From contig JAGAOU010000037.1 in NCBI GenBank assembly GCA_017623595.1, positions 1-64,000 on the forward strand: a DNA stretch of 64,000 bases, in the 5' to 3' direction. The DNA is from Clostridia bacterium (lineage in GTDB: Bacteria; Bacillota; Clostridia; Oscillospirales; UBA644). The notes under the pieces were generated by a model. The model did no database searches and was not told the origin of the DNA. It saw nothing but the letters and a program-made list of their open reading frames with translations. Shown piece by piece: positions 20,145 through 38,558 of the stretch (position 1 is its first letter; the number at the start of each line of letters is the position of its first letter). The translations under genes and the position numbers were made by a program.

Positions 20145-20180
20145 ATATGCGGATGGTCGTCTTGACCGTTCGCTTTCGGT

Positions 20181-20283
20181 TCTTTGCGACTGACGGAGAA
20201 GTGGATTTGACCACGTGAAACAAAGAGCCTGTATTGCCGACCGTCTGGGCACTCTTCCAACATAGGGAGCGTGCCCTTTTTTG
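20181..20283 (+). promoter_or_regulatory. ZTP (pfl-motif) riboswitch with transcription terminator
   Basis: The leader reproduces the ZTP/pfl aptamer: P1 stem TCTTTG (20181-20186) with CAAAGA (20221-20226), GACTGACGG then hairpin GTGG/CCAC (20201-20214), and the hallmark 3' segment CCGACCGTCTGGGCA (20237-20251). Overlapping it is a terminator hairpin GGGCAC.../...GTGCCC (20247-20276) followed by a T run (20277-20283). The bases GGGC belong to both the aptamer and the terminator, so ligand binding (ZTP/ZMP, which build up when formyl-THF is short) should prevent termination and turn on the purine operon. This class commonly precedes purE, purH and fhs genes. Confidence 0.9.
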
Positions 20284-20316
20284 TTTTCTGAATTCTTGTT
20301 CGGAGGTAATTTTACG

Positions 20317-20811: not shown

Positions 20812-20856
20812 GTTTTTATAATCCCTGTTTATATTCAAAGAAAGTAGGTAACAACC

Positions 20857-21546: not shown

Positions 21547-21564
21547 TTTTAACAACTTTCTCTT

Positions 21565-21600
21565 CCCGCCCCGGAGACCCCTGTACTTCTCCGGAGCGGG
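21565..21600 (+). other. stable RNA hairpin between purC and purF
   Basis: CCCGC-(C)-CCGGAGA pairs with TCTCCGG-(A)-GCGGG around a 10-base loop. There is no T run after it, so it is more likely an mRNA processing or stability element than a terminator. Confidence 0.5.
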
Positions 21601-21637
21601 CATCTGATTCTTAATCCTTTGGAGGAATATAGCATTT

Positions 21638-23062
21638 ATGGGAGGATTTTTTGGCGCGGCCTGCAAATACAATGTTATCGATGACGTTTTTTTCGGCACA
21701 GATTACCATTCCCACCTGGGAACCCGTCGGGGTGGTATGGCGGTGTACGATCCTGTGCGTGGGCTTCAGCGCGATATCCATAATATTGAAAATTCGCCCT
21801 TCCGTACCAAGTTTGAAAAGGTTTTTGAGGAAATGACGGGCTGCTCCGCCATCGGCTGCATCAGTGATTACGATCCTCAGCCCTTGCTCATCCGTTCCAA
21901 GCTTGGAGTTTATGCCATCTGTGTGGTGGGGTTTGTCAACAATGCGGAAGAATTGATCGATCAGTATCTCACCTTCAGCGGCGGCCATTTTAACGCCATG
22001 ACGGCGGGAAATGTCAATGGCACGGAGTTGGTGGCGGCTCTGATCAATCAGAAAAATGATTTTGTGGAGGGGCTTCGCTTTGCGCAGTCCGAGATTCAAG
22101 GCACCGCAAATATTTTGATCCTAAAGGGAGACGGTACTATCCTTGCCGCCCGAGACCGCCTGGGACGTCTGCCTGTTTCCGTGGGAAAGCGGGAGGACGG
22201 TTACTGTGTTTCCACCGAATCCTTTGTTTGCGAGAAGGTGGGATACGAACGGATTCGGGAGCTTGGCCCCGGGGAGATCGTATCGATTACCCCCGATGGA
22301 GTGGAGCAGCTTGCCGCGGCAGGTAAGGAAATGCGCTTCTGCTCCTTTATGTGGAGCTATTACGGATTTCCCACCTCTACCTACGAAGGCGTCAACGTGG
22401 AGGTTATGCGCTATCGTAACGGTCAAATCATGGCTAAGAACGATGCTACTGCAGGAAATGCAGAAGGGGTTGATTATGTTGCCGGGGTTCCCGATTCCGG
22501 TGTTCCCCATGCCATTGGATATGCAAGTAAGAGCGACATTCCATATGCAAGACCTTTTATTAAATATACCCCTTCTTGGTCCCGCTCCTTTACCCCTACC
22601 CGTCAGAGCGACCGTCAGAAGGTCGCTACCATGAAGCAGATTCCCGTTCATGAGTTGATTCGGGATAAATCCCTTTTGTTTGTGGACGATTCCATTGTTC
22701 GCGGAACCCAGTTGCAGGGTACAGTGGATTTCTTGTATAACCACGGCGCGAAGGAAGTGCATATGCGTTCCGCTTGTCCGCCCATCATGTATCCCTGTAA
22801 GTTTCTTAACTTCTCCCGTTCCAACAGTGTTATGGAGTTGATTGCCCGCCGCACCATTGCGGAGCTGGAGGGGGAAGAAGGGGAGAAGCATATCGAGGAA
22901 TACTGTGATTCCTCCACCGAACGGGGCAAAAAGCTCCGCGAGACCATTTGTGAAAAGTTCCATTTCAAATCTTTGGAATTTCAGTCTCTGGAGGGGTTGA
23001 TTGAAGCTATTGGGATTGATCCGTCCAAGCTCTGTACTTATTGCTGGAACGGCAAAGAATAA
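21638..23062 (+). CDS. purF: amidophosphoribosyltransferase-like (PurF) protein lacking the N-terminal nucleophile
   Basis: 474 residues with a PurF layout: N-terminal Ntn-hydrolase-like glutaminase domain (to about 230) and a C-terminal phosphoribosyltransferase domain with the PRPP loop LLFVDDSIVRGTQL. Operon position agrees with synthesis of phosphoribosylamine. However, standard PurF begins CGI(V/F)G after processing, whereas this reads MGGFFGAAC: the nucleophilic Cys is Gly, and no in-frame upstream codon restores it. The oxyanion-hole segment HNGNLTN is also changed, to VVGFVNN. The sequence therefore predicts no classical glutaminase; ammonia could be used directly or come from a partner. 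This MGGFFG form seems a coherent subfamily rather than a mutation, but that needs a database comparison. Confidence 0.8.
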   Translation: MGGFFGAACKYNVIDDVFFGTDYHSHLGTRRGGMAVYDPVRGLQRDIHNIENSPFRTKFEKVFEEMTGCSAIGCISDYDPQPLLIRSKLGVYAICVVGFVNNAEELIDQYLTFSGGHFNAMTAGNVNGTELVAALINQKNDFVEGLRFAQSEIQGTANILILKGDGTILAARDRLGRLPVSVGKREDGYCVSTESFVCEKVGYERIRELGPGEIVSITPDGVEQLAAAGKEMRFCSFMWSYYGFPTSTYEGVNVEVMRYRNGQIMAKNDATAGNAEGVDYVAGVPDSGVPHAIGYASKSDIPYARPFIKYTPSWSRSFTPTRQSDRQKVATMKQIPVHELIRDKSLLFVDDSIVRGTQLQGTVDFLYNHGAKEVHMRSACPPIMYPCKFLNFSRSNSVMELIARRTIAELEGEEGEKHIEEYCDSSTERGKKLRETICEKFHFKSLEFQSLEGLIEAIGIDPSKLCTYCWNGKE

Positions 23063-23089
23063 TGTGATAATAGCGAGAGGAGATATCTT

Positions 23090-24136
23090 ATGAGTTTATC
23101 CAAGTCCGACAGTTACGCCGCCGCCGGTGTTGATATTACCGCCGGTTATAAGGCCGTGGAACTGATGAAAAAGCATATTGCACGCACCCGTAATGAGGGA
23201 TGTCTGGATGATGTGGGCGGCTTCGGCGGATGCTTCGGTTTGCCCATTGCCGGCATGGAGGAGCCCGTTCTTGTGTCGGGTACCGACGGCTGCGGAACCA
23301 AGGTAAAGCTTGCCATTCTCATGGACAAGCACGATACCATCGGTATCGATGCCGTTGCCATGTGTGTCAACGATATTATCTGCTGCGGTGCAAAGCCTCT
23401 GTTCTTCCTGGACTACATTGCCTGCGGTAAGAACATTCCCGAAAAGATTGCCGAGATCGTCAGCGGTGTTGCCGAGGGTTGCGTGCAGTCCGGTGCCGCT
23501 CTGATCGGCGGGGAAACGGCAGAGCATCCCGGTATGATGCCCGTGGAGGACTACGACCTTGCAGGTTTTGCCGTCGGTATCGTTGATAAGAAGAAAATTC
23601 TGGACAACACCCGCATGGCGGAAGGGGATATTGTGATTGCCCTGGCCTCTACGGGAATTCACTCCAACGGATTCTCCCTTTGCCGTAAGGTGTTTGATAT
23701 TGATAACAACAACCCCGACCTCTATGTTCCCAAGGGAGAGCTGGGCGGAAAAACCACGGCGGAGGCTCTGTTGGTTCCCACCAGAATTTACGTCAAATCG
23801 GTGCTCGCTCTGCTGGAAAAGGTGGATGTGAAGGGGATTTCCCATATCACCGGCGGCGGCTTCTACGAAAATATTCCCAGAAGCATTCCCGACGGCCTGG
23901 GCGCCAAGATTGACAAGAGTGCCGTTAAGGTGCTTCCCATTTTCGATCTCATCGCCAAGACGGGTAATATCCCCGAACGGGATATGTACAACACTTATAA
24001 TATGGGTGTCGGCATGAGCATCGTTGTCCCCAAGAATGAGGTGGATACCGCCCTTGAAATCCTCAAGGCCAACGGGGAAGATGCTTACGTCATCGGTGAA
24101 ATCATCGCCTCCGACGAAAAGGTGGTCTTATGCTGA
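23090..24136 (+). CDS. purM: phosphoribosylformylglycinamidine cyclo-ligase (AIR synthetase)
   Basis: 348 residues. Opens SYAAAGVDITAGYKAVELMKKH, followed by GGFGGCFGL, GTDGCGTKVKLA and MCVNDIICCGAKPLFFLDY, the signature of AIR synthetases. It closes FGAM to AIR with ATP. The last codons overlap purN by 7 bases. Length is normal. Confidence 0.96.
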   Translation: MSLSKSDSYAAAGVDITAGYKAVELMKKHIARTRNEGCLDDVGGFGGCFGLPIAGMEEPVLVSGTDGCGTKVKLAILMDKHDTIGIDAVAMCVNDIICCGAKPLFFLDYIACGKNIPEKIAEIVSGVAEGCVQSGAALIGGETAEHPGMMPVEDYDLAGFAVGIVDKKKILDNTRMAEGDIVIALASTGIHSNGFSLCRKVFDIDNNNPDLYVPKGELGGKTTAEALLVPTRIYVKSVLALLEKVDVKGISHITGGGFYENIPRSIPDGLGAKIDKSAVKVLPIFDLIAKTGNIPERDMYNTYNMGVGMSIVVPKNEVDTALEILKANGEDAYVIGEIIASDEKVVLC

Positions 24137-24762
24137 GTCCCGTTCGGATTGCCGTCCTTGTTTCGGGCGGCGGAACCAATCTGCAAGCCCTGATCGATGC
24201 GGAAAAAACCGGCATGTTCGGCGCAGGGAAGATTTCTCTTGTTCTCGCCTCCAAGCCCGGGGTTTATGCCCTTGAGCGTGCGACAAACAATGGGATTCCC
24301 GCCAAGGTTTTGCCCCGCAAGGCCTTTGAGTCCATCGCCGATTATTCCAAAGCCCTGGCGGATACGTTACAGGAAGAGAAGATCGATCTTGTGGTGCTGG
24401 CAGGCTTTTTGACCATCATCGACGAGCAGGTGTTTGAAGCCTTCCCTTACCGTATTCTCAACGTTCATCCTGCCCTGATTCCCTCCTTCTGCGGGAAGGG
24501 ATACTATGGGCTTCATGTTCATGAGGCGGCTTTGGCGAAGGGCGTGAAGATTTCGGGCGCTACGGTGCATTTTGTTACCCCCGAATGTGACGCGGGCCCC
24601 ATCGTTCTGCAAAAGGCGGTGGATGTCAGGCAGGACGATACCCCGGAGACCTTGCAACAGCGCATCATGGAAGAAGCGGAGTGGAAAATTCTTCCCGAAG
24701 CTGTGAAGCTTTTCTGTGAAGGAAAGCTCCGTGTTTCCGATAACAAAGTTTACATTGACTGA
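24130..24762 (+). CDS. purN: phosphoribosylglycinamide formyltransferase
   Basis: 210 residues, the formyl-THF-dependent GAR transformylase. Motifs are IAVLVSGGGTNLQALIDA, the catalytic region ILNVHPALIPSFCGKGYYGLHVHEAAL (Asn, His) and VTPECDAGPIVLQKAV with the catalytic Asp. It uses formyl-THF, which the fhs gene later in the operon helps supply. Translation is coupled to purM by overlap. Confidence 0.95.
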   Translation: MLSPVRIAVLVSGGGTNLQALIDAEKTGMFGAGKISLVLASKPGVYALERATNNGIPAKVLPRKAFESIADYSKALADTLQEEKIDLVVLAGFLTIIDEQVFEAFPYRILNVHPALIPSFCGKGYYGLHVHEAALAKGVKISGATVHFVTPECDAGPIVLQKAVDVRQDDTPETLQQRIMEEAEWKILPEAVKLFCEGKLRVSDNKVYID

Positions 24763-24783
24763 AGACCGAAAGGAGATCTTTTT

Positions 24784-25500
24784 ATGAAAATTTCCACCAT
24801 TGCAAATGAACTGAATTCTTTGGCTTACCACGGCCGCGGTATTATCATCGGAAAGAGCGCTGACGGAAAAAAAGCGATCACCGCTTATTTCATCATGGGG
24901 CGCAGTGAAAACAGCCGTAACCGTGTCTTTGTTGCGGAAGGGGACGCAATGCGCACCAAAGCCTTTGATGAATCCAAAATGATCGATCCCCATCTGATCA
25001 TTTATTATCCCGTCCGTGTTCTCGGAAATAAGACTATTGTTACCAACGGTGATCAGACCGACACTATTTACGATCTGATGGATAAGCAGATGACCTTCGA
25101 ACAGGCCCTTCGTACCCGTGAATTTGAAGATGATAAGCCTAACTTCACTCCCCGCATTTCGGGCATTATCCATCACGAAAAGGGCGAAATGAACTTTGCC
25201 ATGTTCATTCTGAAGTCCGCCGAGGGCGACGATTCCTCCTGTGAGCGCTTCACCTTCGCCTACAACAATCCCATTGCGGGAAAGGCGAAATTTATCCACA
25301 CCTATAACGGTGACGGCAATCCCCTTCCTTCCTACGAAGGAGAGCCCAAGACTCTGGAACTGCCCGACACCGATATTGATTCTCTCACAGATCTGATCTG
25401 GACCAATCTGAACGAAGATAACAAGGTATCCCTCTTTGTTCGTTACATTGATTTGGAAAACGGCGAGACCGAAACCCGCATCGTCAACAAAAACGTTTAA
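24784..25500 (+). CDS. PurO-type IMP cyclohydrolase
   Basis: 238 residues of the IMP_cyclohyd family (PF07826, archaeal PurO type): AYHGRGIIIGKSADGKKAITAYFIMGRSENSRNRVF is its recognisable start. It would close FAICAR to IMP, the final step. Most bacteria use the N-terminal half of bifunctional PurH; here that half is replaced by this unrelated enzyme, and the next gene supplies only the transformylase half. Position between purN and the transformylase supports the assignment. Distinct from PurH2 by sequence. Confidence 0.85.
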   Translation: MKISTIANELNSLAYHGRGIIIGKSADGKKAITAYFIMGRSENSRNRVFVAEGDAMRTKAFDESKMIDPHLIIYYPVRVLGNKTIVTNGDQTDTIYDLMDKQMTFEQALRTREFEDDKPNFTPRISGIIHHEKGEMNFAMFILKSAEGDDSSCERFTFAYNNPIAGKAKFIHTYNGDGNPLPSYEGEPKTLELPDTDIDSLTDLIWTNLNEDNKVSLFVRYIDLENGETETRIVNKNV

Positions 25501-25514
25501 TTAAGGAAAGGGAA

Positions 25515-26705
25515 ATGAAAATGAAAGAATTTGAACTGAAGTACGGTTGTAACCCCAATCAGAAGCCCGCAAAAATTTTTATGCATGACGGATCCGATCT
25601 TCCCATCGAAATCCTTTCCGGCCGTCCCGGATTCATTAACTTCCTGGACGCCTTTAATTCCTGGCAGCTGGTCAAAGAACTGAAGGAAGCCCTCGGCCTT
25701 CCCGCCGCTGCATCCTTCAAGCATGTTTCTCCCACCTCTGCCGCCGTGGGTACCCCCCTTCCCGAAAAACTGAAGAAGGCTTGCTTTGTGGATGACATCG
25801 AAGGCCTGGATGAGAATCCTTTGGCCTGCGCCTATGCCCGTGCCCGCGGTACCGACCGTATGTGCTCCTACGGTGACTGGGTTGCCCTTTCCGATGTTTG
25901 TGACAAAATGACCGCCGAGTTGATCTTCCGTGAAGTTTCCGACGGCGTTATCGCTCCCGGGTATACCGAGGAAGCCCTCGAAATCCTCAAGGGCAAACGT
26001 AAGGGGAACTACAATGTGGTCAAGATCGATCCCAACTATGTCCCCGATGCCATCGAGCATAAGCAGGTTTACGGTATTACCTTTGAGCAGGGCCGCAACG
26101 CTGTTGCCATCGATGCAAAGATGCTGGAAAACGTGGTCACCGAGAAGAAGGATCTTCCCGAATCCGCAAAGAGAGACCTGGTTGTTGCTCTGATTACTCT
26201 GAAATACACGCAGTCCAACTCGGTTTGCTACGCCGTGGACGGCCAGGCCATCGGTGTGGGTGCCGGACAGCAGTCCCGTATTCATTGTACCCGTCTTGCC
26301 GGCGGAAAGGCAGACACCTGGCATCTGCGTCAGGCCGACAAGGTCCTTAACCTGCCCTTCAAGCCCGAGTTGTCCCGTCCCGAACGTGACAACGTCATCG
26401 ACGGCTACATCAACAAAAACGAAGAGGATGTTTGCGCTGAAGGCGTTTGGCAGAAATACTTCACCGTCCGTCCCGAGCCCTTTACCTCCGAGGAAATGAA
26501 GGCATATCTTGCCACCATCCGCGGTGTTGCTCTGGGCTCTGATGCTTTCTTCCCCTTTGATGACAATATTCAGCGCGCTTACGCCAGCGGTGCAGATTAT
26601 ATCGCAGAACCCGGCGGCTCCATCCGTGATGACATTGTTATCTCCCGTTGCAATGAACTGGGCATTTCCATGGCATTTACGGGTCTCCGTTTGTTCCACC
26701 ACTAA
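25515..26705 (+). CDS. stand-alone AICAR transformylase (C-terminal half of PurH)
   Basis: 396 residues covering only the AICARFT portion of PurH: ELKYGCNPNQKPAKI, FKHVSPTSAAVG (catalytic Lys-His), AIGVGAGQQSRIHCTRLA, and the ending SDAFFPFDDNIQRAYASGADYIAEPGGSIRD with ISMAFTGLRLFHH. It transfers formyl from formyl-THF to AICAR. There is no MGS-like cyclohydrolase domain, consistent with the PurO-type partner upstream. Accumulated substrate (ZMP/ZTP) is the riboswitch ligand, so this step closes the regulatory loop. Confidence 0.92.
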   Translation: MKMKEFELKYGCNPNQKPAKIFMHDGSDLPIEILSGRPGFINFLDAFNSWQLVKELKEALGLPAAASFKHVSPTSAAVGTPLPEKLKKACFVDDIEGLDENPLACAYARARGTDRMCSYGDWVALSDVCDKMTAELIFREVSDGVIAPGYTEEALEILKGKRKGNYNVVKIDPNYVPDAIEHKQVYGITFEQGRNAVAIDAKMLENVVTEKKDLPESAKRDLVVALITLKYTQSNSVCYAVDGQAIGVGAGQQSRIHCTRLAGGKADTWHLRQADKVLNLPFKPELSRPERDNVIDGYINKNEEDVCAEGVWQKYFTVRPEPFTSEEMKAYLATIRGVALGSDAFFPFDDNIQRAYASGADYIAEPGGSIRDDIVISRCNELGISMAFTGLRLFHH

Positions 26706-26726: not shown

Positions 26727-27827
26727 ATGAAGAAGATTTTTGCATTGTTGCTTTGTCTTTCTATGGTTTTTGCTCTCGTTGCCTGCGGCGGCGGAGAAGA
26801 AACGCTCACGGACGGTTCGGATGCATCGGTTGACGCTTCCACCGAAACCTCCACTGACACGTCTTCCAATACGTCCACCAATACAAACGGTTCTTGGGGC
26901 GATCTTCCCGAGGATACCGTTCCCAACCTGGTAATCGCTAACGATCAGATCAAGGAACGTGCCGTTATCTATGATCTGGATGCCTACGAAGAAGGCGATA
27001 CTCTGGATGATCTTGAGGTTTGGTCGGTTCCTACCGGTCATGCGGCAGGTGTTAAGTACCGCGAAGACACGGTTTTCGGTGACGTTGTTATTGTTGCCGG
27101 ATCTCAGACGTCCGCTATTTACAAATATCCCTCTAAGGAAGTTGTTTGGAGTACTTCCAACCCCGGAAATAATCCCCACTCCATCGAAATTCTTCCCTCC
27201 GGTAATATCGTTATTGCCAACTCCACGGGCAACTGCCTCAGAGTTTTTTCCGCTTCTGCGATTTTGGACGGGAATAAGGGTGTTGCTCAGAAATTTACTG
27301 ATTACACGTTGAAGGGTGCTCACGGTGTTTTGTGGGATCCCGAATATGAAGTTCTGTGGGCGCTGGGCGGTTACGAACTGGCGGCTTATGCCATCTCCGG
27401 CACCGGAACAGGTGAAAAATTGTCCAAAGTGGGCGGTATGGGGTGCGATATTTCCAAACTGGGCTACGGTCATGACCTCCAGCCCGACTATACCGACACA
27501 CGTTATCTCTACTTCACTGCGGGGAATGCCTACCGCTTTGATAAAGAAGAGAACAAGGCAGGCAGTTTCCCCCAGGCCAGCACGATGCAGCAAAAGGAAA
27601 TCAAAGGATTTTCCAACAATCCCAATGGGAATGTGTTTACCACAGGTCCTCTCGGCGGTGCCGGAAAGTTCTTTGCCAACAGCTCCAAGGAATCCTGGCT
27701 GACCGATACGATTTATTTCTTCACCAAGAAGGTTGTCAAGGACCGAGTTGTTGTTACGAAAAACGAATTTGTTTCGGAATCCAGCGCCTTCTATAAGGTT
27801 CGTGCGTTCTACGGACAGTATCAATAA
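26727..27827 (+). CDS. propeller-like lipoprotein of unknown function, paralogue 1 of 5
   Basis: 366 residues. A lipoprotein signal (MKKIFALLLCLSMVFALVAC, lipobox LVAC, Cys20) and a Ser/Thr/Asp-rich linker (residues about 28-56) place it outside the membrane. The remainder has the motifs shared by all five copies: NDQ, TVFGDV, NN-x-HSIEILPSGN (His151), AHGVLWDPEY (His199), YGHDLQPDYTDTRYLYF (His249), KGF, WLTDTI and AFYKVRAFYGQY. The pattern of repeated short blades and conserved HxxE-LP-GN resembles arylsulfotransferase-like propellers and, from memory, DUF6528; the function is unknown. It starts 21 bases after the AICAR transformylase and clearly lies within the purine operon. Confidence 0.8.
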   Translation: MKKIFALLLCLSMVFALVACGGGEETLTDGSDASVDASTETSTDTSSNTSTNTNGSWGDLPEDTVPNLVIANDQIKERAVIYDLDAYEEGDTLDDLEVWSVPTGHAAGVKYREDTVFGDVVIVAGSQTSAIYKYPSKEVVWSTSNPGNNPHSIEILPSGNIVIANSTGNCLRVFSASAILDGNKGVAQKFTDYTLKGAHGVLWDPEYEVLWALGGYELAAYAISGTGTGEKLSKVGGMGCDISKLGYGHDLQPDYTDTRYLYFTAGNAYRFDKEENKAGSFPQASTMQQKEIKGFSNNPNGNVFTTGPLGGAGKFFANSSKESWLTDTIYFFTKKVVKDRVVVTKNEFVSESSAFYKVRAFYGQYQ

Positions 27828-27861
27828 TCTTGACAGGATTTTTTCTTCTCGGCAACGTTTG

Positions 27862-27876
27862 TTGTGAGTATCACAA
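27862..27876 (+). other. short palindrome between paralogues 1 and 2
   Basis: TTGTGA-GTA-TCACAA, a perfect 6-bp inverted repeat just before the second paralogue's ribosome site. It may be an operator or an mRNA hairpin, or chance. Confidence 0.3.
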
Positions 27877-27894
27877 AATAAGGGGTATAACATC

Positions 27895-28983
27895 ATGAAA
27901 AAGATTTTTGCATTAGTGCTTTGTCTCTCAGTGCTTTTTTCTCTTGTTGCCTGCGGAGGTGGGGAAGTTCCCTCTGATGGGTCGGACGCATCGGTTGATG
28001 CGTCCTCCGAATCCTCTACCGACACCTCCACCGATACCTCCGGTTGGACCGGTCTTCCCGAAGACACGGTTGATAACTGGGTTATTGCCAACGATCAGAT
28101 CAAGGATCGCGTTGTTGTGTATGATCTGGATGCATACGAAGAAGGTGATGTTCTGGAGGATTTGGAGGTTTGGTCTGTTTCGACCCAGGGCCAGGCCGCA
28201 GGGGTAAAGTATCGTGAGGATACCGTGTTCGGCGATGTTGTTATCGTTGCGGGCAGTCATTCCGCCATTTATGAATATCCCTCCGGAAAAGAGCTTTGGT
28301 CCACAAACAATCCCGGAAACAATACACATTCCATTGAGATCCTTCCCTCCGGGAATATCGTTCTTGCCAATTCCACAGGCAACAGCCTGCGCATGTTCCA
28401 AGCCAGCGCTATCCTGAGCGGCGACAGCAAGAAGTCTCAAAGCTTTAAGGACTATGAATTGGCCGGTGCGCACGGGGTTCTGTGGGATCCCGAATACGAT
28501 GTTCTGTGGGCCCTGGGTAACGGCGAAATCGCCGCCTATGCCCTTGCCAACAGTAGCGCGGGAGAGGTCCTTTCCAAGGTTTCCGGAATGGGGACCACCT
28601 TCTCGGGTCTGAAGGGGAGTGGCCATGATTTGCAGCCTGACTATAGTGATACCCGTTATCTCTATTTCACCGCAGGAAATGTTTACATGTTCGATAAGGA
28701 AGAAAATAAGGTTCGGACCAGTTTCCCCTATTCTTCTACTTTCCAGCTTCCCGAAATCAAGGGCTTTTCCAACAACCCCAACAAGAAGTTTTTCAGTACG
28801 GGACTTCTGGGAGGAGAAGGAAAGTTCTTCGAAGGCCATTGGAAGGAAAGTTGGCTGACCGATACCATTATTTTTTACTTCAGAATCGAAAAGCGTGGCC
28901 AGGTTGCCATGCGCAAGGTTGAAATTGTTGCGGAAGAAAGTGCTTTTTATAAGGTTCGTGCTTTTTACGGACAATATCAATAA
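27895..28983 (+). CDS. propeller-like lipoprotein of unknown function, paralogue 2 of 5
   Basis: 362 residues and the closest relative of the preceding gene: the same signal and lipobox (MKKIFALVLCLSVLFSLVAC, Cys20), a short Ser/Asp/Thr-rich linker, and nearly identical motif blocks (IANDQIKDRVVVYDLDAYEEGD, NNTHSIEILPSGN, AHGVLWDPEYDVLWALG, GHDLQPDYSDTRYLYF, WLTDTI, AFYKVRAFYGQYQ). Even the bases after both stop codons are alike, evidence for a recent tandem duplication. It should be anchored to the outer face of the membrane. Function unknown. Confidence 0.8.
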   Translation: MKKIFALVLCLSVLFSLVACGGGEVPSDGSDASVDASSESSTDTSTDTSGWTGLPEDTVDNWVIANDQIKDRVVVYDLDAYEEGDVLEDLEVWSVSTQGQAAGVKYREDTVFGDVVIVAGSHSAIYEYPSGKELWSTNNPGNNTHSIEILPSGNIVLANSTGNSLRMFQASAILSGDSKKSQSFKDYELAGAHGVLWDPEYDVLWALGNGEIAAYALANSSAGEVLSKVSGMGTTFSGLKGSGHDLQPDYSDTRYLYFTAGNVYMFDKEENKVRTSFPYSSTFQLPEIKGFSNNPNKKFFSTGLLGGEGKFFEGHWKESWLTDTIIFYFRIEKRGQVAMRKVEIVAEESAFYKVRAFYGQYQ

Positions 28984-29021
28984 CCTTGATATGATTTTCG
29001 GTTCCTCGGGGGCATTTACTT

Positions 29022-29936
29022 ATGGGTGGATGGAATCATCCGGTGCTTGGAAACGATCAATGGAACGAATCCATTGTTTTGTATGATTTGGACTGCATAG
29101 ATTCCCTCGGTTCTTTGGAGCAGGGGGAAATTCAACGCTGGTCTACCGATCACATATCCGGGATGACCTATCGTGAAGATACCGTTTTCGGCGATGTATT
29201 TCTCACCGTTGGAAGGACCGCTTCCCTTGTTACTTTCCCGGAAGGGAAGGTCTTGTGGTCTACCGATTCTCCCGGACGGAATTCTCATGCGGCAGAATTG
29301 TTGCCGGGAGGTAATCTCATTGTGGCCAATTCCTCGGGGGATGATTTCCGACTGTTCTTTACGTCAGCGCTTTTGACTTCAGATCGGGATTCTGCCGCAA
29401 CCTATGTTTCCTATCCGTTCTTCCACACCCACGGGGTCCTGTGGGATCCCGTGTACCAATGCCTTTGGGTGTTGGGTGCCGGGGAGCTTGCAGCCTATCG
29501 CGCGGTCGGGGAAGGGGTGTCCCAACGTTTGGAGCCCATTCCCGGAAAACGGTGGTCGATTTCCGAATACGGGAACGGCGGTCATGATTTGAATCCCGAT
29601 CCTACCGACAGCCGCTATTTGTTTTGTACACCCCTTCACGGCGTGCTTCGCTTCGACAAACAGACGGGAACCTTTTCCCGCCCATATCCTGCACAAGCTG
29701 CCATTGCAACCCGCCATTGTAAATCCTTTTCCTGTTTTCCTGACGGAACGTTTGTTTATACCTCCCCTGCGCTTCGGGATGATCCGAAATGGAACGACTG
29801 GTGGAAGCAGAACTGGTGTACAGACAGAATTGTTTGGTTGCGGGTTTCCCCCGATGGAACTTTTGAGGAACGGGAAATCTTTAGCGATCAAGGTGCGTTT
29901 TATAAATGTAAGGTCTTTTACGGACAGTACCTTTGA
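29022..29936 (+). CDS. propeller-like protein without signal peptide, paralogue 3 of 5
   Basis: 304 residues. It begins directly at the conserved core (MGGWNHPVLGNDQWNES) with no signal peptide or linker, so it should be cytoplasmic. Core motifs persist with drift: TVFGDVFLTVG, RNSHAAELLPGGN (His89), THGVLWDPVYQCLWVLG (His137), NGGHDLNPDPTDSRYLF (His188), CTDRIVW and AFYKCKVFYGQYL. The start has only a GGGGG-type ribosome site. It is closest to paralogue 4. Function unknown. Confidence 0.75.
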   Translation: MGGWNHPVLGNDQWNESIVLYDLDCIDSLGSLEQGEIQRWSTDHISGMTYREDTVFGDVFLTVGRTASLVTFPEGKVLWSTDSPGRNSHAAELLPGGNLIVANSSGDDFRLFFTSALLTSDRDSAATYVSYPFFHTHGVLWDPVYQCLWVLGAGELAAYRAVGEGVSQRLEPIPGKRWSISEYGNGGHDLNPDPTDSRYLFCTPLHGVLRFDKQTGTFSRPYPAQAAIATRHCKSFSCFPDGTFVYTSPALRDDPKWNDWWKQNWCTDRIVWLRVSPDGTFEEREIFSDQGAFYKCKVFYGQYL

Positions 29937-29959
29937 ATTGATTACGGAGATGTTTTGTT

Positions 29960-30877
29960 ATGGAAAACAAATCCTTTCTTGTTATCGGAAATGATCAGAT
30001 GGCGGAGCAGATGACCGTCTACGATTTGGGGAAAATTCCCGAAGACGGTTCTCTGGAGGACGGGGCCGTCTGGTCCTTCCCTTCGGGACATTCCGCAGGG
30101 GTTAAATACCGTGAGAATACCGTGTTTGGCGACGTGATGCTTTTTGGCGGAAGCAGGAGTTATATGGTCTCCTATCCTTCGGGTGAAGTTCTCTGGTTTA
30201 CGGATTGTTCAGGCAACAATACCCATTCGGTGGAGATTCTTCCCGGTGGGAATCTTGTGTTTGCCAATTCTACGGGGAATGACATCCGTCTTTTCTATAC
30301 CTCTGCACTGCTGGCGGGAGATAAAGAAACTGCCGCCACCTATACCTCCTATCCCTTCGGATGTACCCATGGGGTCTTGTATGATCCTGTGTATGAATGC
30401 CTTTGGGTGATCGGTGAGTGGGATCTTGCCGCTTATCGCATTGTAGGTCAGGGAACAGAGCAGACGTTGGAACCTATCGAGGGAAAATCCTATTCTCTCA
30501 AGCCCTTCGGCAATGCGGGACACGACCTGTCTCCCGATCTTTTGGACAGTCGCTATCTCTATTGCACCCCTGCCTCGGGTGTTCTTCGTTTTGACAAAGA
30601 AACGGGTGCCTTTGATACCTCTTTTGCCGACGGAACGCCTCTGCAGTCTTATTCCTTTAAGTCCTTTACCCAATTTCCCGACGGGACGTATGTTTACACT
30701 GCTCCCTATTGTAACGGTCGCCGCCGCATGCTTGAGGATTGGTGGAAGGGTAGTTGGTGCACCGATTTTATTGGTGTTCTGCGACACTTGCCTGACGGCT
30801 CCCGACAAGAAACCCGCTATTTTGCTGATGTTGCCGCATTTTATAAGTGTCGTGCCCTTTGCGGAAGATACTTGTAA
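29960..30877 (+). CDS. propeller-like protein without signal peptide, paralogue 4 of 5
   Basis: 305 residues. Starts MENKSFLVIGNDQ, with no export signal. Motifs: NTVFGDVMLFGG, GNNTHSVEILPGGN (His89), THGVLYDPVYECLWVIG (His137), NAGHDLSPDLLDSRYLY (His188), WCTDFIGVL and AFYKCRALCGRYL. The three histidines stand at exactly the same positions as in paralogue 3, pointing to a shared active or binding site. It is separated from its neighbours by short gaps and lies inside the purine operon. Function unknown. Confidence 0.75.
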   Translation: MENKSFLVIGNDQMAEQMTVYDLGKIPEDGSLEDGAVWSFPSGHSAGVKYRENTVFGDVMLFGGSRSYMVSYPSGEVLWFTDCSGNNTHSVEILPGGNLVFANSTGNDIRLFYTSALLAGDKETAATYTSYPFGCTHGVLYDPVYECLWVIGEWDLAAYRIVGQGTEQTLEPIEGKSYSLKPFGNAGHDLSPDLLDSRYLYCTPASGVLRFDKETGAFDTSFADGTPLQSYSFKSFTQFPDGTYVYTAPYCNGRRRMLEDWWKGSWCTDFIGVLRHLPDGSRQETRYFADVAAFYKCRALCGRYL

Positions 30878-30904
30878 GTGTTTTGCAAAAAAGGAGGTTT
30901 TGTT

Positions 30905-31822
30905 GTGGACCTGAATGTGTCTTCTGTTCCGAAGCTGATTCTTGCAACGGATCAGTTTCAGGAGAGGGCTGTTGTTTATGATCTGGCGCGCTACGAAGAA
31001 GGGAAGACCTTGGATGATCTTGAGGTTTGGTCTCTTCCCATTGGTCATGCCGCCGGATTAAAGTTTCGGGAAAACACTGTATTCGGTGATGTGATTATCG
31101 TGGGGGGCAGCCACAGCGCTATTTACGAATACCCCTCAGGACGCAAAATATGGGGAACCGATAACAGCGGGAACAACACCCATTCGGTAGAGCTTCTGCC
31201 CTCCGGAAATATCGTTTTTACCAATACCCACGGACACTGTCTCCGCCTATTCCTTACCTCCGCTCTGTTGGAGGGAAACGAGGCGAAAGCACAGGAATAT
31301 CTTGAATATCCGAAAAACTGGGCTTACAGTGCAGTCTGGGATCCTGAACGGAAGGTTCTTTGGGCAGGCGGAAGCCGTCTTGAGGCCTACGCGGTGGAGG
31401 GAGAAGGAACGAATCAAACGCTCCGTCTTTTGGAAGATAGGGGTTATACTTACCCTGCCCATGATATGATGCCCGATTACACCGATTCCCGCTACCTATA
31501 TATGGCAGGGAACGAGGTCGTTCGCTATGATAAGCAAACCAATACAATTTCCGATCAATTCTCCTTCTGTGATGTTCTGCAGGGGGGTTCTCTGAAATGT
31601 TTCTTCAATGTCCCCTGCGGCGATTTCTACTGTAACGGAACCCTCGGAGGGAAAGGAAGGTTTTACGAAGGATTCCGGAAGGAATCCTGGCTGACCGATA
31701 CAATCGTTTGTTTTTTTCGAAAGATCGATGAAAACGGAACGGTCTGCCTTGTGCGGCGAGAGTTGACCTCCTCCAAAAGTGCATTCTATAAGGTCCGTCC
31801 TCTTTACGGGAAATATCTGTAA
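30905..31822 (+). CDS. propeller-like protein without signal peptide, paralogue 5 of 5
   Basis: 305 residues when started at the GTG 30905, chosen because AAAGGAGG lies 8 bases before it; the longer frame begins within the ribosome site. The core is conserved (ATDQFQERAVVYDLARYEEGK, NTVFGDVIIVGGSHSAIYEYPSG, NNTHSVELLPSGN with His93, WLTDTI, AFYKVRPLYGKYL), but the second motif reads AYSAVWDPERK instead of AHGVLWDP, so that His is missing, and the third is AHDMMPDY (His186). No signal peptide. Sequence-wise nearer to copies 1-2 than to 3-4. Function unknown. Confidence 0.73.
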   Translation: MDLNVSSVPKLILATDQFQERAVVYDLARYEEGKTLDDLEVWSLPIGHAAGLKFRENTVFGDVIIVGGSHSAIYEYPSGRKIWGTDNSGNNTHSVELLPSGNIVFTNTHGHCLRLFLTSALLEGNEAKAQEYLEYPKNWAYSAVWDPERKVLWAGGSRLEAYAVEGEGTNQTLRLLEDRGYTYPAHDMMPDYTDSRYLYMAGNEVVRYDKQTNTISDQFSFCDVLQGGSLKCFFNVPCGDFYCNGTLGGKGRFYEGFRKESWLTDTIVCFFRKIDENGTVCLVRRELTSSKSAFYKVRPLYGKYL

Positions 31823-31890: not shown

Positions 31891-33156
31891 ATGAAATTAC
31901 TTGTGGTCGGTGGTGGCGGACGAGAGCATGCCATCATCAAAAAACTTCGGGAAAATCCCGAAGTGACCGAAATCTTTGCCCTTCCCGGCAACGGTGGCAT
32001 TGCGCGGGATGCTACCTGCGTGGATATCGGTGCGAAGGATATCGACGCTATTGTGAAGTTTGCTGTGGAAAACAAGATTGATTATGCCGTGGTCGCCCCC
32101 GACGATCCTTTGGTCCTCGGGTGTGTGGATGCCTTGAATGAAAAGGGGATTCCCTGCTTCGGTCCCAAGGCCAATGCGGCCATCATTGAAGGCAGTAAGG
32201 TCTTTTCCAAGGATCTGATGAAGAAATACGGCATTCCTACCGCCGCCTATGAGGTCTTTACCGAAATGAATGGGGCGCTGGAATACCTGAAAACCGCCCC
32301 CATTCCCACCGTCATCAAGGCCGACGGGCTTGCCCTCGGCAAGGGTGTGGTCATCGCCATGACCCGTGAGGAGGCTACCGATGCGGTGCGCTCCATGATG
32401 GAGGATAAAATTTTTGGGGAAAGCGGAAGCCGCGTTGTTATTGAGGAATTTTTGACCGGCCCTGAGGTTTCGGTGCTTTCCTTTACCGACGGGAAAACCG
32501 TGGTTCCCATGGTTTCCTCCATGGATCACAAACGAGCATTGGACAATGACGAAGGGTTGAACACCGGCGGTATGGGTACCATTGCCCCCAACCCCTATTA
32601 CACCGCTGAAATTGCCGATGTGTGTATGAAGACCATCTTCAAGCCCACCATCGATGCCATGAATGCCGAGGGTAGAACCTTCAAGGGTTGCCTCTATTTC
32701 GGTCTCATGCTCACCCCCAAGGGCCCCAAGGTGATTGAGTACAACTGCCGTTTCGGCGATCCCGAGACTCAGGTGGTGCTTCCTCTGCTGGAAAGCGATC
32801 TTCTCACCGTAATGAAGGCCACAACCGACGGAACCCTGACCGAGGACATGGTCAAGTTCCGTGACGGATCCTGTGCCTGTGTGGTAATGGCCTCTGCGGG
32901 ATATCCCCAAAAATATCAAACGGGGTATGAAATCACCCTTCCCGAAACCGTCGCCGACCGAGTTTATGTGGCGGGTGCAAAGCTTGTCGATGACAAGCTG
33001 CTCACCTCCGGCGGCCGAGTTCTCGGCGTGACCGGAACAGGGGAGACCCTGCCTGAGGCGCTCAACGCTGCGTATCAAGCTGTCAATGAAATTTCTTTCG
33101 AAAATGCTTTTTGCCGCAAGGACATCGGTGCCCGTGCATTGAAGGCATTGAATTGA
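31891..33156 (+). CDS. purD: phosphoribosylamine-glycine ligase (GARS)
   Basis: 421 residues of the ATP-grasp type. Starts MKLLVVGGGGREHAIIKKL; has GPKANAAIIEGSKVFSKDLMKKYGIPTA, VIKADGLALGKGVVIA, MVSSMDHKRALDNDEGLNTGGMG and VIEYNCRFGDPETQ, all standard GAR synthetase motifs. It joins phosphoribosylamine, the product of PurF, with glycine. The gap before it has a small hairpin (31855-31881) close to its ribosome site but no terminator. Confidence 0.97.
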   Translation: MKLLVVGGGGREHAIIKKLRENPEVTEIFALPGNGGIARDATCVDIGAKDIDAIVKFAVENKIDYAVVAPDDPLVLGCVDALNEKGIPCFGPKANAAIIEGSKVFSKDLMKKYGIPTAAYEVFTEMNGALEYLKTAPIPTVIKADGLALGKGVVIAMTREEATDAVRSMMEDKIFGESGSRVVIEEFLTGPEVSVLSFTDGKTVVPMVSSMDHKRALDNDEGLNTGGMGTIAPNPYYTAEIADVCMKTIFKPTIDAMNAEGRTFKGCLYFGLMLTPKGPKVIEYNCRFGDPETQVVLPLLESDLLTVMKATTDGTLTEDMVKFRDGSCACVVMASAGYPQKYQTGYEITLPETVADRVYVAGAKLVDDKLLTSGGRVLGVTGTGETLPEALNAAYQAVNEISFENAFCRKDIGARALKALN

Positions 33157-33165
33157 GGAGTTATT

Positions 33166-36100
33166 ATGGTATATCGTGTTTATGTTGAAAAACGGGGCGA
33201 ACTTGCCCATGAGGCCAACGGACTTCTGGAGGATGTCCGCGGTTTTCTCGGCATCGCTTCTTTGGAAAAGGTTCGTATTCTGAACCGCTACGATGTGGAA
33301 GGCATCGGGGAAGAGCTCTTTGAAAAAGCGGTCAACACCGTCTTTTCCGAACCTCAGGTGGATGTTGCCACCGCCGATTACGATGCGGCAGGGGGCACGG
33401 TGTTTGCAGTGGAATATCTGCCCGGTCAGTTCGACCAGCGTGCCGATTCCGCCGCCCAGTGTATCCAGATTATGAGTCAAGGGGAACGTCCCCTTGTCCG
33501 CACGGCGAAGATCTATATTTTGGAAGGAGATCTTTCCGAAGAAGAAATCGCCGCCATCCGCCATCACGTCATTAACCCTGTGGAATGCCGTGAAGCGAGT
33601 CTGGAAAAGCCCGATACGCTGGCCCTTTCGGTGAATATCCCCGAATCGGTTGCCACCGTGGATGGATTTTTGGAACTGGATCGGGACGGACTGGATGCCC
33701 TGGTTAAGTCCCTTGGTCTTGCCATGGATCTGGACGACATCACCTTCTGTCAGAATTATTTCAAAACCGAAGGCCGTAACCCCACCATCACTGAAATCCG
33801 CATGATCGATACCTACTGGTCCGATCACTGCCGCCATACCACATTCCTTACCACTATCGACAATGTGAAGTTCGAGGATGCTCTTTTACAGAGCGCCTAC
33901 GATGAATATATCGCCACCCGTAAGGAATTGGGACGCACCAAGCCCATCAATCTGATGGATATCGGTACCTTGGCGGGCAAATACCTGCACAAGAACGGTT
34001 ATCTGGACAAACTGTACGAATCGGAAGAGATTAACGCTTGTACGGTTCGCATGACTGTGACCGTGGATGGGGAAGAGCAGCCCTGGCTTTTGCTCTTTAA
34101 GAACGAAACTCACAACCACCCCACCGAGATCGAGCCCTTCGGCGGCGCTGCCACCTGTATCGGTGGTGCTATCCGCGATCCTCTGGCCAGCCGCGCTTAC
34201 GTTTATGCCGCTATGCGCGTGACGGGGGCCGCCGATCCTTTGAAGCCTGTGGAGGAAACCATGACGGGTAAGCTTCCTCAGCGCAAGATTGTCACCACTG
34301 CCGCCGCCGGTTATTCTTCCTACGGTAACCAGATCGGTCTTTGCACCGGCATGGTGGACGAGCTCTACCATCCCGGCTATGCGGCCAAGCGCATGGAAAT
34401 CGGTGCAGTTGTCGGTGCGGTGCATGAAGATCACTCCAAGCCCGATTTCCCCGCTCCCGGCGATAAGGTTATCCTTCTGGGCGGTCGTACGGGTCGCGAC
34501 GGTTGCGGCGGTGCCACCGGTTCCTCCAAGAGCCACACCGTTGCTTCTCTGGAAAGCTGCGGCGCAGAGGTTCAGAAGGGGAATGCTCCCGAGGAACGCA
34601 AGCTTCAGCGTATGTTCCGCAACGGGGAAGCCGCCGTTATGATCAAGCGCTGCAATGACTTCGGCGCAGGCGGTGTTTCTGTTGCCATCGGTGAATTGGC
34701 CGACGGCCTGGAAATCGATCTGAATAAAGTACCAAAGAAATACGAAGGTTTGGACGGCACCGAACTGGCCATTTCCGAATCCCAGGAACGTATGGCTGTT
34801 GTGGTTGCCGAAGAAAATGTGGCTCGTTTCCTGGAAATCGCCGAGAGCGAAAACCTGGAAGCCACCGTTGTTGCCACCGTCAAGGAAGATCCCCGTCTTA
34901 AGATGTATTGGAACGGGCAGACCATCTGTGACGTCAGCCGCGAATTTTTGAATTCCAACGGTGCGGAAAAACATATCGATATTGACGTTGCCGCTCCCGT
35001 GTCCTTCAAGCCCGCCATCAACGGCTCCTTTACCGAAAATCTGTACAACGTAGCCACCGATCTGAACACCTGCTCCAAGCGCGGTCTGTCCGAGCGCTTC
35101 GACGCCACCATCGGCGCGGGCACGGTGCTTATGCCCTTCGGCGGTAAGCATCAGCAGACTCCCATTCAGGCCATGGTTCATAAGATCAGCCTGGAAAAGG
35201 GGCACACCGACGATTGCTCGGTCATGTCTTGGGGCTACAATCCCTACATCACCGAAAAGTCTCCCTATCATGGCGCTTATCTTGCCGTGGTGGAATCCGC
35301 TGCCAAGCTGGTTGCCACCGGCGCTTCTTACGAGGATGTTTACCTCACCTTCCAGGAATATTTCCTGCGCGTGGGCAAGGATTCCAAGCGTTGGGGACAG
35401 CCTATGGCCGCCCTGTTGGGTGCTTTCAAGGCGCAGAAGGATCTGAAGATCGCCGCCATTGGCGGTAAGGACTCCATGTCGGGTACCTTCGAAGATCTGG
35501 ATGTTCCTCCCACCCTCGTTTCTTTTGCAATCACCACTGAAAAGGTGCAGAACATCATTTCCAATGAATTCAAGAAAGCGGGCAGCAAGGTGGTTTGCCT
35601 TTCTCCCGAATATGATGAAAACGGTCTTCCCAACACCGAATCCCTCCTGTCCCTCTTCCGTCGCGTGACCGAGCTTATGCGGGCGGGCAAGGTCTTGTCT
35701 TGCTACACTCCCGGCATGGGTGGTATCGGTGCCGCAGTCATGAAGATGGCATTCGGCAACGGCTTTGGCTTTGATTTCGCCGACACGGTATGCCCCAAGT
35801 GCCTGTTCGGTTATGAATACGGCTCCTTCGTCATGGAGGTGACCGAAGATGTGGAAGGTGCCCGTCTGATCGGTACCGTTACCGACAAGGGCGTGATCAC
35901 CCGGAAGGATGAATCTGTTTCCCTCGCCGACCTGCAGAAGGCTTACGAGGACAAACTGGAATCGGTTTACGCCTGCAACATTCCCGACGCAAAGATCCCC
36001 GTTGAAACAGTTTCCTCTCCCGCATCTGTCCGTGTGGCTCCCGCCGTCAAGGTGGCTAAGCCCAAGGTGCTGATTCCCGTGTTCCCCGGAACCAACTGTG

Positions 36101-36858
36101 AATATGACTCTGCCCGCGCCGTTTCCGATGCAGGGGCCGAACCCGAGATCTTTGTGGTCAAGAACCGTTCCTCCGAAGCAATCGCCAAGAGTGTGGAGGA
36201 ATTTGCCTGCAAGATCAAGGATTCTCAGGTGATCTTCATTCCCGGCGGGTTCTCCGGCGGGGACGAGCCCGATGGATCGGGTAAGTTCATCACCGCCTTC
36301 TTCCGCAACGCCGCCATTAAGGAAGAGGTTACCAAACTGTTGGAAGATCGGGACGGTCTGATGCTGGGTATCTGCAACGGATTCCAGGCCTTGGTCAAGC
36401 TGGGCCTCGTTCCCTACGGCAAGATCATTGATACCGATGAAGCTTGCCCCACCTTGACCTACAACGTCATCGGTCGTCACCAGTCCCGTATCGTCCGCAC
36501 CCGTGTTGCCTCCAACAAGTCTCCCTGGCTTGCCAATACCAACGTGGGTGATGTGTACAACGTTGCCATTTCTCACGGGGAAGGTCGCTTCTTTGCAAGC
36601 GAATCTCTGGCACGGGAACTGATCAACAACGGTCAGGTTGCCACCCAGTATGTGGACCTTGCGGGCAATGCCACCGCCGATGTCCGCTTCAATCCCAACG
36701 GTTCCATTTTCGCCATCGAGGGTATCACCTCGCCCGACGGCCGTGTATTGGGTAAGATGGGCCATTCCGAACGTATCGGCAACGGTCTGTACCGCAACGT
36801 CCCCGGCGAATACGACATGAAGCTCTTCAAATCCGCAGTAGAATATTTTAAGAAATAA
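33166..36858 (+). CDS. purL: phosphoribosylformylglycinamidine synthase, single-chain form
   Basis: 1230 residues combining what many Firmicutes split into PurS, PurL and PurQ. N-terminal PurS-like and linker part (to about 220), two AIRS-like halves (DTYWSDHCRHTTF near 208, NETHNHPTEIEPFGGAATCIGG near 310, then AAIGGKDSMSGTF near 770), and a C-terminal class I glutaminase (from about residue 965: VLIPVFPGTNCEYDSARA) with catalytic Cys1070 in LGICNGFQAL and His/Glu in HGEGRF. It converts FGAR to FGAM using glutamine. Its glutaminase is intact, unlike that of the PurF-like protein. It begins 9 bases after purD. Confidence 0.96.
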   Translation: MVYRVYVEKRGELAHEANGLLEDVRGFLGIASLEKVRILNRYDVEGIGEELFEKAVNTVFSEPQVDVATADYDAAGGTVFAVEYLPGQFDQRADSAAQCIQIMSQGERPLVRTAKIYILEGDLSEEEIAAIRHHVINPVECREASLEKPDTLALSVNIPESVATVDGFLELDRDGLDALVKSLGLAMDLDDITFCQNYFKTEGRNPTITEIRMIDTYWSDHCRHTTFLTTIDNVKFEDALLQSAYDEYIATRKELGRTKPINLMDIGTLAGKYLHKNGYLDKLYESEEINACTVRMTVTVDGEEQPWLLLFKNETHNHPTEIEPFGGAATCIGGAIRDPLASRAYVYAAMRVTGAADPLKPVEETMTGKLPQRKIVTTAAAGYSSYGNQIGLCTGMVDELYHPGYAAKRMEIGAVVGAVHEDHSKPDFPAPGDKVILLGGRTGRDGCGGATGSSKSHTVASLESCGAEVQKGNAPEERKLQRMFRNGEAAVMIKRCNDFGAGGVSVAIGELADGLEIDLNKVPKKYEGLDGTELAISESQERMAVVVAEENVARFLEIAESENLEATVVATVKEDPRLKMYWNGQTICDVSREFLNSNGAEKHIDIDVAAPVSFKPAINGSFTENLYNVATDLNTCSKRGLSERFDATIGAGTVLMPFGGKHQQTPIQAMVHKISLEKGHTDDCSVMSWGYNPYITEKSPYHGAYLAVVESAAKLVATGASYEDVYLTFQEYFLRVGKDSKRWGQPMAALLGAFKAQKDLKIAAIGGKDSMSGTFEDLDVPPTLVSFAITTEKVQNIISNEFKKAGSKVVCLSPEYDENGLPNTESLLSLFRRVTELMRAGKVLSCYTPGMGGIGAAVMKMAFGNGFGFDFADTVCPKCLFGYEYGSFVMEVTEDVEGARLIGTVTDKGVITRKDESVSLADLQKAYEDKLESVYACNIPDAKIPVETVSSPASVRVAPAVKVAKPKVLIPVFPGTNCEYDSARAVSDAGAEPEIFVVKNRSSEAIAKSVEEFACKIKDSQVIFIPGGFSGGDEPDGSGKFITAFFRNAAIKEEVTKLLEDRDGLMLGICNGFQALVKLGLVPYGKIIDTDEACPTLTYNVIGRHQSRIVRTRVASNKSPWLANTNVGDVYNVAISHGEGRFFASESLARELINNGQVATQYVDLAGNATADVRFNPNGSIFAIEGITSPDGRVLGKMGHSERIGNGLYRNVPGEYDMKLFKSAVEYFKK

Positions 36859-36876
36859 GAAAAGGAGAACATTCCA

Positions 36877-38553
36877 ATGGCTTATCTTTCCGACATTGAA
36901 ATCGCACAGCAGTGCAAAATGCTCCCCATCACCGAAATCGCAAAAACCGCAGGTATTGACGACAAATATCTGGAACAATACGGCAAATACAAGGCAAAGG
37001 TTGATCTTTCCCTGATGAAGGAAAGCGACAAAAAGAACGGCAAACTGATCCTTGTTACCGCTATGACGCCCACCCCCGCCGGGGAAGGGAAGACCACCAC
37101 CACCATCGGTCTGGCCGACGGCCTTCGCAAGATCGGCAAAAACGTCATGGTTGCTCTCCGTGAACCCTCCCTCGGTCCCGTTTTCGGGGTCAAGGGCGGT
37201 GCCGCCGGCGGCGGTTACGCACAGGTCGTCCCCATGGAGGATATCAACCTTCACTTCACCGGTGACTTCCATGCCATCGGTGCTGCCAACAACCTGTTGG
37301 CCGCCATGCTGGACAACCATATCCATCAGGGCAATACCCTCGGCATCGATCCTCGCAAGATCACATGGAAGCGTTGCGTGGATATGAATGACCGCCAGCT
37401 TCGTTTTGTTGTGGACGGTCTGGGCGGCAAGGTCAACGGCGTTCCCCGTGAAGACGGCTTCGACATCACCGTTGCCTCCGAAATCATGGCAGTTCTCTGC
37501 CTTTCCGGTTCTATCACCGAACTGAAGGAACGCCTCTCCCGTATTATCGTTGGTTATACCTATGATGATAAACCCGTCACCTGCGCCGACATCAAGGCTC
37601 AGGGTGCTATGGCCGCCCTTCTGAAGGACGCCCTCAAGCCCAACCTGGTTCAGACGCTGGAAGGCACTCCCGCATTGGTTCACGGCGGTCCCTTCGCCAA
37701 CATCGCCCACGGTTGTAACTCCGTTACCGCCACCAAGCTGGCTATGAAGCTGGGCGATTATGCGGTTACCGAAGCAGGCTTCGGCGCCGATCTCGGTGCT
37801 GAAAAGTTCTTGGACATCAAGTGCCGCACCGCCGGTTTGACTCCCGACGCTGTGGTTGTGGTTGCCACCGTCCGCGCTCTGAAGATGCATGGCGGACTTG
37901 CCAAGACCGAATTGAACACCGAGGATCTGGTTGCCCTCGAAAAGGGTATTCCCAACCTTCTGCGTCATGTTTCCAACATTAAGAATGTTTACAAACTGCC
38001 CTGCGTGGTTGCTGTCAACCGCTTCCCCACCGATACCGATGCGGAAATCGACTTCATCGTTGCCAAGTGCCGTGAGCTGGGCGTCAACACCGTTCTGTCC
38101 ACCGTTTGGGCCAACGGCGGCGAAGGCGGCAAGGAGCTTGCCAAGGAAGTGGTTCGTCTCTGCGAAGAAGAACAGGGTGATTTCACCTTCTCCTATGAGC
38201 TGGACGGCACCATCGAAGATCGCATCGACGCAGTGGTCCGCAAGGTCTACGGCGGTGACGGTATTTCCGTTCTCCCCGCAGCCAAGGCTCAGATCGCCCG
38301 TCTGACCGAGCTGGGCTTCGGCAATCTGCCCATCTGTGTGGCTAAGACCCAGTATTCCTTCTCCGATGATCCCATGAAGTTGGGCGCTCCCGAGGGCTTC
38401 ACCGTTACTGTCCGTAACGTGAAGGTTTCCGCAGGTGCCGGCTTTATCGTGGTTCTCACCGGTGATATTATGACCATGCCCGGTCTTCCCAAGGTTCCCG
38501 CCGCTGAACGCATCGACGTGGACGAAGACGGTAAGATCTCCGGCCTCTTTTAA
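36877..38553 (+). CDS. fhs: formate-tetrahydrofolate ligase
   Basis: 558 residues, the usual size. The nucleotide/formyl-phosphate loop [20 protein letters not shown] (residues 64-83) and [22 protein letters not shown] are diagnostic. It makes 10-formyl-THF from formate, THF and ATP, the one-carbon donor for PurN and the AICAR transformylase. Its presence in a ZTP-controlled operon is functionally logical: ZTP signals formyl-THF shortage. It follows purL by 18 bases. Confidence 0.97.
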
Positions 38554-38558
38554 TCGCC

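Follow-up and report, generated by a model that had tools for sequence, protein, structure and literature searches.

Five tandem DUF6528 propeller genes in a ZTP riboswitch-headed purine operon of gut Clostridia: a possible captured accessory module

The window analysed here, a 64,000-nucleotide stretch of contig JAGAOU010000037.1 from the Clostridia bacterium assembly GCA_017623595.1, contains an apparent purine operon of ~19 kb, in which five same-strand genes of the DUF6528 family (PF20138), termed D1 to D5, stand in tandem between the AICAR formyltransferase (AICARFT) gene and purD (Table 1). The genes are tightly spaced, with 21 bp between AICARFT and D1, 67, 38, 23 and 0 bp between successive paralogues, and 68 bp between D5 and purD. 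In the region 19.8-39.3 kb, a pattern scan identified a single consensus promoter and, on the gene strand, a single strong terminator, and cmscan a single ZTP riboswitch; the promoter is the sole perfect sigma-70 site in 19.5 kb and lies immediately 5' of the riboswitch, from which co-directional genes run uninterrupted to the terminator. Terminator-like sites number 31 in total, which is only a slight excess over the 24.2 (sd 4.9) counted in shuffled sequence, and a weak site with a poor T tract (31800-31826) overlaps the stop codon of D5. No convincing promoter or terminator was found by the pattern scan in the interval between AICARFT and D1. This agrees with the first-pass annotation, made from the sequence alone, which had placed five tandem paralogues in the purine operon behind a ZTP riboswitch and had seen no terminator or clear promoter between them and the pur genes. 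With the riboswitch at its head, the genes from purE to purL and a formate-THF ligase gene, the operon shares its features with other purine operons controlled by RF01750, but differs from the usual arrangement in having five non-pathway genes in its middle; no described DUF6528 member in a pur operon was found. Three of the pathway genes score below the curated NCBIfam cut-offs, though these models are still their best matches, namely purC (20857-21543; 118.8 against 189.9 bits), purF (21638-23062; 168.9 against 350 bits) and the IMP cyclohydrolase gene (24784-25497; 55.5 against 150 bits), and because of these scores PurC, PurF and the IMP cyclohydrolase are considered divergent.

Table 1. 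Features of the purine operon and its DUF6528 block (positions in the window)
Feature	Position	Strand	Evidence
sigma-70 promoter, TTGACA-17-TATAAT, extended -10	20116..20144	+	pattern scan, 12/12 matches
ZTP/ZMP riboswitch aptamer RF01750, operon head	20176..20257	+	cmscan 62.1 bits, gathering 39
purE, purC, purF, purM, purN, IMP cyclohydrolase-like, AICARFT	20281..26705	+	ORFs, NCBIfam
D1: DUF6528, lipoprotein signal (..FALVAC-GGG), Ser/Thr/Asp-rich linker, full pocket ring	26727..27827	+	Pfam 41.2 bits, alignment, AlphaFold
D2: DUF6528 lipoprotein (FSLVAC), Ser/Thr/Asp-rich linker, full ring	27895..28983	+	Pfam 41.2 bits, alignment, tree
D3: DUF6528, no export signal; ring intact bar K110T	29022..29936	+	Pfam 32.1 bits, alignment, cytosolic subclade
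D4: DUF6528, no export signal; full ring, W203 to Y	29960..30877	+	Pfam 28.0 bits, alignment, cytosolic subclade
D5: DUF6528, no export signal; H199Y, G200S	30878..31822	+	Pfam 23.0 bits, alignment, tree
purD, purL, formate-THF ligase, XTP/dITP pyrophosphatase	31891..39152	+	ORFs; NCBIfam except purL (recognised by sequence)
strong intrinsic terminator, 14-pair stem, after last operon gene	39163..39193	+	terminator scan

The five proteins align end to end, with 39-72% identity to D1 and numerous invariant columns, and the alignment together with the ORFs substantiates their description as tandem paralogues. The more specific claim that all five share one ordered set of motifs stands in part: many columns are invariant, but D5 has AYSAVWDP where the other four paralogues have HGVL(W/Y)DP, and the C-terminal end of D4 reads ALCGRYL. 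D2, which is 72% identical to D1, appears to be its recent duplicate. The family had been guessed correctly as DUF6528, as D1-D4 exceed the Pfam gathering score of 23.5 bits; D5 falls short by 0.5 bit, yet belongs with D1/D2 at 99/97 support in the tree despite its sub-threshold score, and is probably a degenerate copy derived from the surface branch. A lipoprotein signal is present in D1 and D2 only, while D3-D5 have no space for a signal peptide, in keeping with the earlier suggestion that the copies act on both sides of the membrane.

The suggestion of a propeller was likewise upheld, by an AlphaFold model of D1 residues 62-366 (mean pLDDT 96.4, pTM 0.93) that predicts a six-bladed propeller with confidence. 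Among the matches listed, the model resembles the six-bladed YWTD propellers of LRP6/LRP4, NHL propellers and the designed Pizza6, with Z up to 23.5 and an rmsd of about 2.8 over about 245 residues at 9-14% identity; the propellers of LRP6, LRP4 and TRIM2, which share the overall fold, are binding domains of animal proteins. A sequence search for a solved homologue returned nothing beyond generic WD40/NHL-type repeats. When conservation was computed over 140 family members from several phyla and strand positions were taken from the model, near-invariant polar residues were found at or next to all six inner strands (K110/R112, H151/E154, H199/D204, H249, K293 and Y356-K357), with a conserved His at three of these strands; H151, H199, H249 and E154 are 99-100% conserved. 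This inner-strand ring (K/R, H, H, H, K, Y-K), whose residues would share one pocket in the modelled fold, suggests a working pocket, and it is kept whole in D1, D2 and D4. By fold and conserved residues the paralogues thus qualify as DUF6528 proteins, with the exceptions in D3, D4 and D5 given in Table 1. The papers searched make no mention of DUF6528, and hence of no substrate or activity for it. Two other enzyme families were considered and set aside, both without a Pfam match at E <= 1: SGL/lactonase (PF08450), for which profile-profile comparison gave a probability of 46% over 94 columns with the DUF6528 His not aligned to His, and oligogalacturonate lyase (PF14583), for which the probability was 0.1%.

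DUF6528 is matched 24 times in the host genome (2.43 Mb, 126 contigs), 19 of these matches lying outside the pur block, and counts of 5, 8, 13 and 18 were obtained for the four remaining genomes of the genus. A draw of 398 genomes of the phylum, including the window's own, contained DUF6528 in the window's own genome only. The non-pur copies lie mostly in arrays, the largest of which holds 11 copies (contig C57). One tRNA gene of equal score lies inside the DUF6528 arrays of three species, namely the C57 array of the window's genome and arrays of G001 and G004 (L046 18316-18404, L054 10461-10549 and L057 786-874), so that such an array may be built around the tRNA; a riboswitch was searched for at the other DUF6528 arrays and none was found, just a tRNA. 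DUF6528 is expanded in this genus, and most of the host copies are predicted surface lipoproteins that lie in arrays around a tRNA. Beyond the genus, a search of 84,980 species genomes for a single conserved peptide pattern identified relatives in Streptomyces, Amycolatopsis and Paenibacillus, in Bacteroidota and in gut Clostridia; this approach gives a lower bound for the spread of the family.

DUF6528 members elsewhere have the same propeller and conserved His ring and include secreted proteins, found for instance in Bacteroides glycan loci, whereas D1-D5 lie in tandem inside a pur operon and partly without export signal. Two Bacteroides SusCD loci contain DUF6528, one with phosphodiester glycosidases and GH3 and the other with a GH99-like protein and GH2 (Bacteroides finegoldii WP_186926763.1 and WP_237923726.1); neither is near pur genes, and as in these loci, a non-pur DUF6528 copy of the host genome adjoins a glycosidase. 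The cluster concerned has the order AraC regulator, DUF6528, GH20, DUF6528, and a Bacteroidota MAG encodes a GH20-DUF6528 fusion; these are two separate hexosaminidase links. Further copies adjoin GH2 (G004), ThuA and two xylose isomerase-like proteins (G015), an ABC permease plus a xylose isomerase-like protein (Paenibacillus) or SusD (Bacteroidota), and metallophosphoesterase-DUF6528 fusions, one of them with S-layer anchors, occur in Paenibacillus, Cohnella and chicken-gut Clostridia. From these neighbourhoods and fusions we infer a function on glycans or glycosides, as enzyme or as binder. These links are guilt by association, drawn from branches of DUF6528 other than the pur branch.

The first-pass annotation had called for a survey of other genomes for the block beside pur genes, and such a survey showed that the linkage recurs. 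The window's genome has five copies of DUF6528 between AICARFT and purD, RGIG9149 (G001) has two, and RGIG9137 (G451) and RGIG3900 (G452) have one each at this junction; in RGIG995 (G004) at least two DUF6528 genes precede purD at a contig end, so that the AICARFT side is not seen. The position is thus occupied in five species with 1 to 5 copies, the relatives being MAGs that are possibly incomplete and whose contigs are unannotated. For G452 the copy in the pur operon is the only DUF6528 match detected, and G451 has one further match besides the copy in its operon. G002 and G003, of the same genus, have the full pur operon and ZTP riboswitch with no DUF6528 at the AICARFT-purD junction, and none of the other relatives with a readable junction has DUF6528 there, although all retain the pur genes; the block therefore does not behave like a purine biosynthesis enzyme needed for the pathway in related species. 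The junction of G003 (L150 2686-3126) instead holds a different gene of about 120 aa, with short inverted repeats on both sides, and no DUF6528 relic was found there; we take its product to be a four-helix-bundle-like (S23-type) protein. The purine linkage is real and inherited, not chance, but confined to one small uncultured lineage of ruminant-gut Clostridia, within a peptide-pattern scan and a phylum sample that leave room for DUF6528 beside pur genes in other lineages. The first-pass annotation had named random scatter of homologues, with no link to purine genes, as evidence against its reading; such scatter was found for DUF6528 overall, but not for the pur branch. Among the pathway genes, identity between same-genus genomes is 92-99% for purC, AICARFT and fhs, where comparable. 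The products of purF and purL are glutamine amidotransferase enzymes; the purL of the window (33166-36858) shares 85% identity with that of G004 and just 61-62% with those of G001, G002 and G003, and the purF of G001 is 65-67% identical to that of the remaining species (loci compared for both genes: L053, L055, L230, L231, L232 and L234).

When 89 family members are placed in a tree, a single branch (SH-aLRT 81) separates the ten pur copies from all others, and the pur label requires one change, a number that was reached in 0 of 500 label shuffles. The joint pur branch has a support of 58/78 in a careful tree restricted to the 23 nearest members and was seen in 64% of bootstrap trees; it contains two firmer subclades, one cytosolic (D3, D4, G001 and G004; 100/100) and one surface (D1, D2, D5, G001, RGIG9137 and RGIG3900; 93/90). 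The pur copies probably go back to one capture; their single origin is only moderately supported, and two captures are therefore possible. Mapped on an AICARFT and purD tree, the linkage pattern requires three changes, which may fit, e.g., one gain plus losses, or more than one gain. The signal-less state shows six changes on the tree, and signal-less DUF6528 copies appear to have arisen several times. Values of dN/dS (NG86) were 0.08-0.23 where computable, with several dS near saturation, NG86 dS values above about 1.5 being rough and YN00 unusable for most pairs owing to saturation; on these values, the genes of the pur block appear to be kept by purifying selection.

Taken as a whole, the block resembles an accessory module acquired by capture, not a missing step of purine synthesis. 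We give roughly an even chance to the explanation that glycan- or glycoside-acting accessory propellers were captured into a ZTP-controlled pur operon and split into surface and cytosolic forms, for which computed support comes from the family, the fold, the conservation of pocket residues, the operon layout, the recurrence of the linkage, selection and the glycan neighbourhoods of relatives. A DUF6528 gene, most likely encoding a surface lipoprotein, would have been captured, most likely once, between AICARFT and purD in a gut Clostridia ancestor, and in-place duplication would then have given rise to two branches, the surface one with D1, D2 and the derived D5 and the cytosolic one with D3 and D4. 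All five proteins would use the central pocket to bind a sugar or glycoside or to act on it, with the identity of the substrate and the choice between catalysis and binding being conjectural; the surface copies may capture or process such a compound outside the cell, and the cytosolic copies may act on the product that enters. The block is presumably transcribed with the pur genes, as judged from the arrangement of the operon, and since it would be co-transcribed, expression of D1-D5 would rise with ZTP/ZMP accumulation. Such co-transcription may confer growth- or one-carbon-linked expression, which would be the presumed benefit of pur control.

Several results could also be accommodated by the main rival, a purine-linked role, in which the pur branch handles ribosides, nucleotides or a pathway by-product, with salvage of nucleosides or nucleotides at the surface, cytosolic copies acting on a phosphoribosyl intermediate and the cationic ring binding phosphate. 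The linkage is retained across five species, the pur branch forms its own cluster in the trees, the operon is headed by a ZTP riboswitch and also encodes a purine-NTP cleaning enzyme (XTP/dITP pyrophosphatase), and His, Lys and Arg abound in the putative pocket; moreover, the retention by G452 of its sole detected copy in the pur operon is explained by a purine-linked role no less well than by an accessory glycan role. However, G002 and G003 keep operon and riboswitch without the block, which is also absent from all other relatives with a readable junction, the lipoprotein copies are extracellular, and all ring residues are common to members far from pur genes, so that no purine-specific signature was found in the pur branch. 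A direct purine role of the block is thus possible, and we hold this reading to be rather doubtful; its narrower form, in which a new ZTP-controlled enzyme or receptor pair at surface and cytosol would serve to salvage or detoxify a riboside or a phosphoribosyl compound, seems unlikely. The substrate first proposed, a purine-pathway or folate-related compound, is weakened by G002 and G003, by the glycan and sugar-transport contexts and by the 19 copies elsewhere in the genome.

Neutral hitch-hiking, i.e. chance spill-over from the genus-wide expansion into an insertion-tolerant AICARFT-purD junction with no gain from pur control, would be in line with the 24 copies in the genome, with the different gene at the same junction of the sister species G003, with a copy number ranging from 1 to 5, with the loss of a near-invariant His in D5 and with an operon that appears to be a mosaic, its purF and purL differing in version between species. 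Intact genes under purifying selection, two subclades maintained across species and the lack in G452 of another detected copy as a source of spill-over argue against it, and we regard it as distinctly improbable. An analogy can also be drawn to arylsulfate sulfotransferase (PF05935, EcAST 3ELQ), in which case a pore histidine would accept and transfer a sulfuryl (or phosphoryl) group. The propeller domain of EcAST is six-bladed and carries a catalytic His, and the protein also has an N-terminal beta-sandwich domain (PMC13426309); DUF6528 shares the H-x-x-x-LP-x-G strand with it and possesses three near-invariant His on the pore side. Sulfotransferases do not appear among the 50 fold matches listed, but a list of that length carries no weight either way. 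D1-D5, however, show no significant sequence relation to it (no Arylsulfotrans match in Pfam at E <= 1, and a profile-profile probability of 23% over 32 columns, under the 46% of the SGL comparison) and are too short for the beta-sandwich domain, and it is very hard to credit such a mechanism here.

The conserved polar ring, the fusions to glycan enzymes and the branch in the pur operon together lead to testable predictions for the activity of DUF6528. If the pur branch acts on a purine-related compound, a surface and a cytosolic player would be added to a heavily studied pathway, and if the enzyme/receptor reading of this branch is true, it would be the first function for DUF6528. If the pur branch does not act on purines, the locus would be a clear example of a selected accessory family captured by a housekeeping operon.

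Among the DUF6528 copies outside the operon, two proteins are long, with 818 and 897 aa (L061 7710-10403 and L050 11276-13732), and their N-terminal part has no Pfam match over the gathering score. The big DUF6528 array of G001 also contains a 121-aa ORF (L054 9792-10157) with a four-helix-bundle-like N-terminus.
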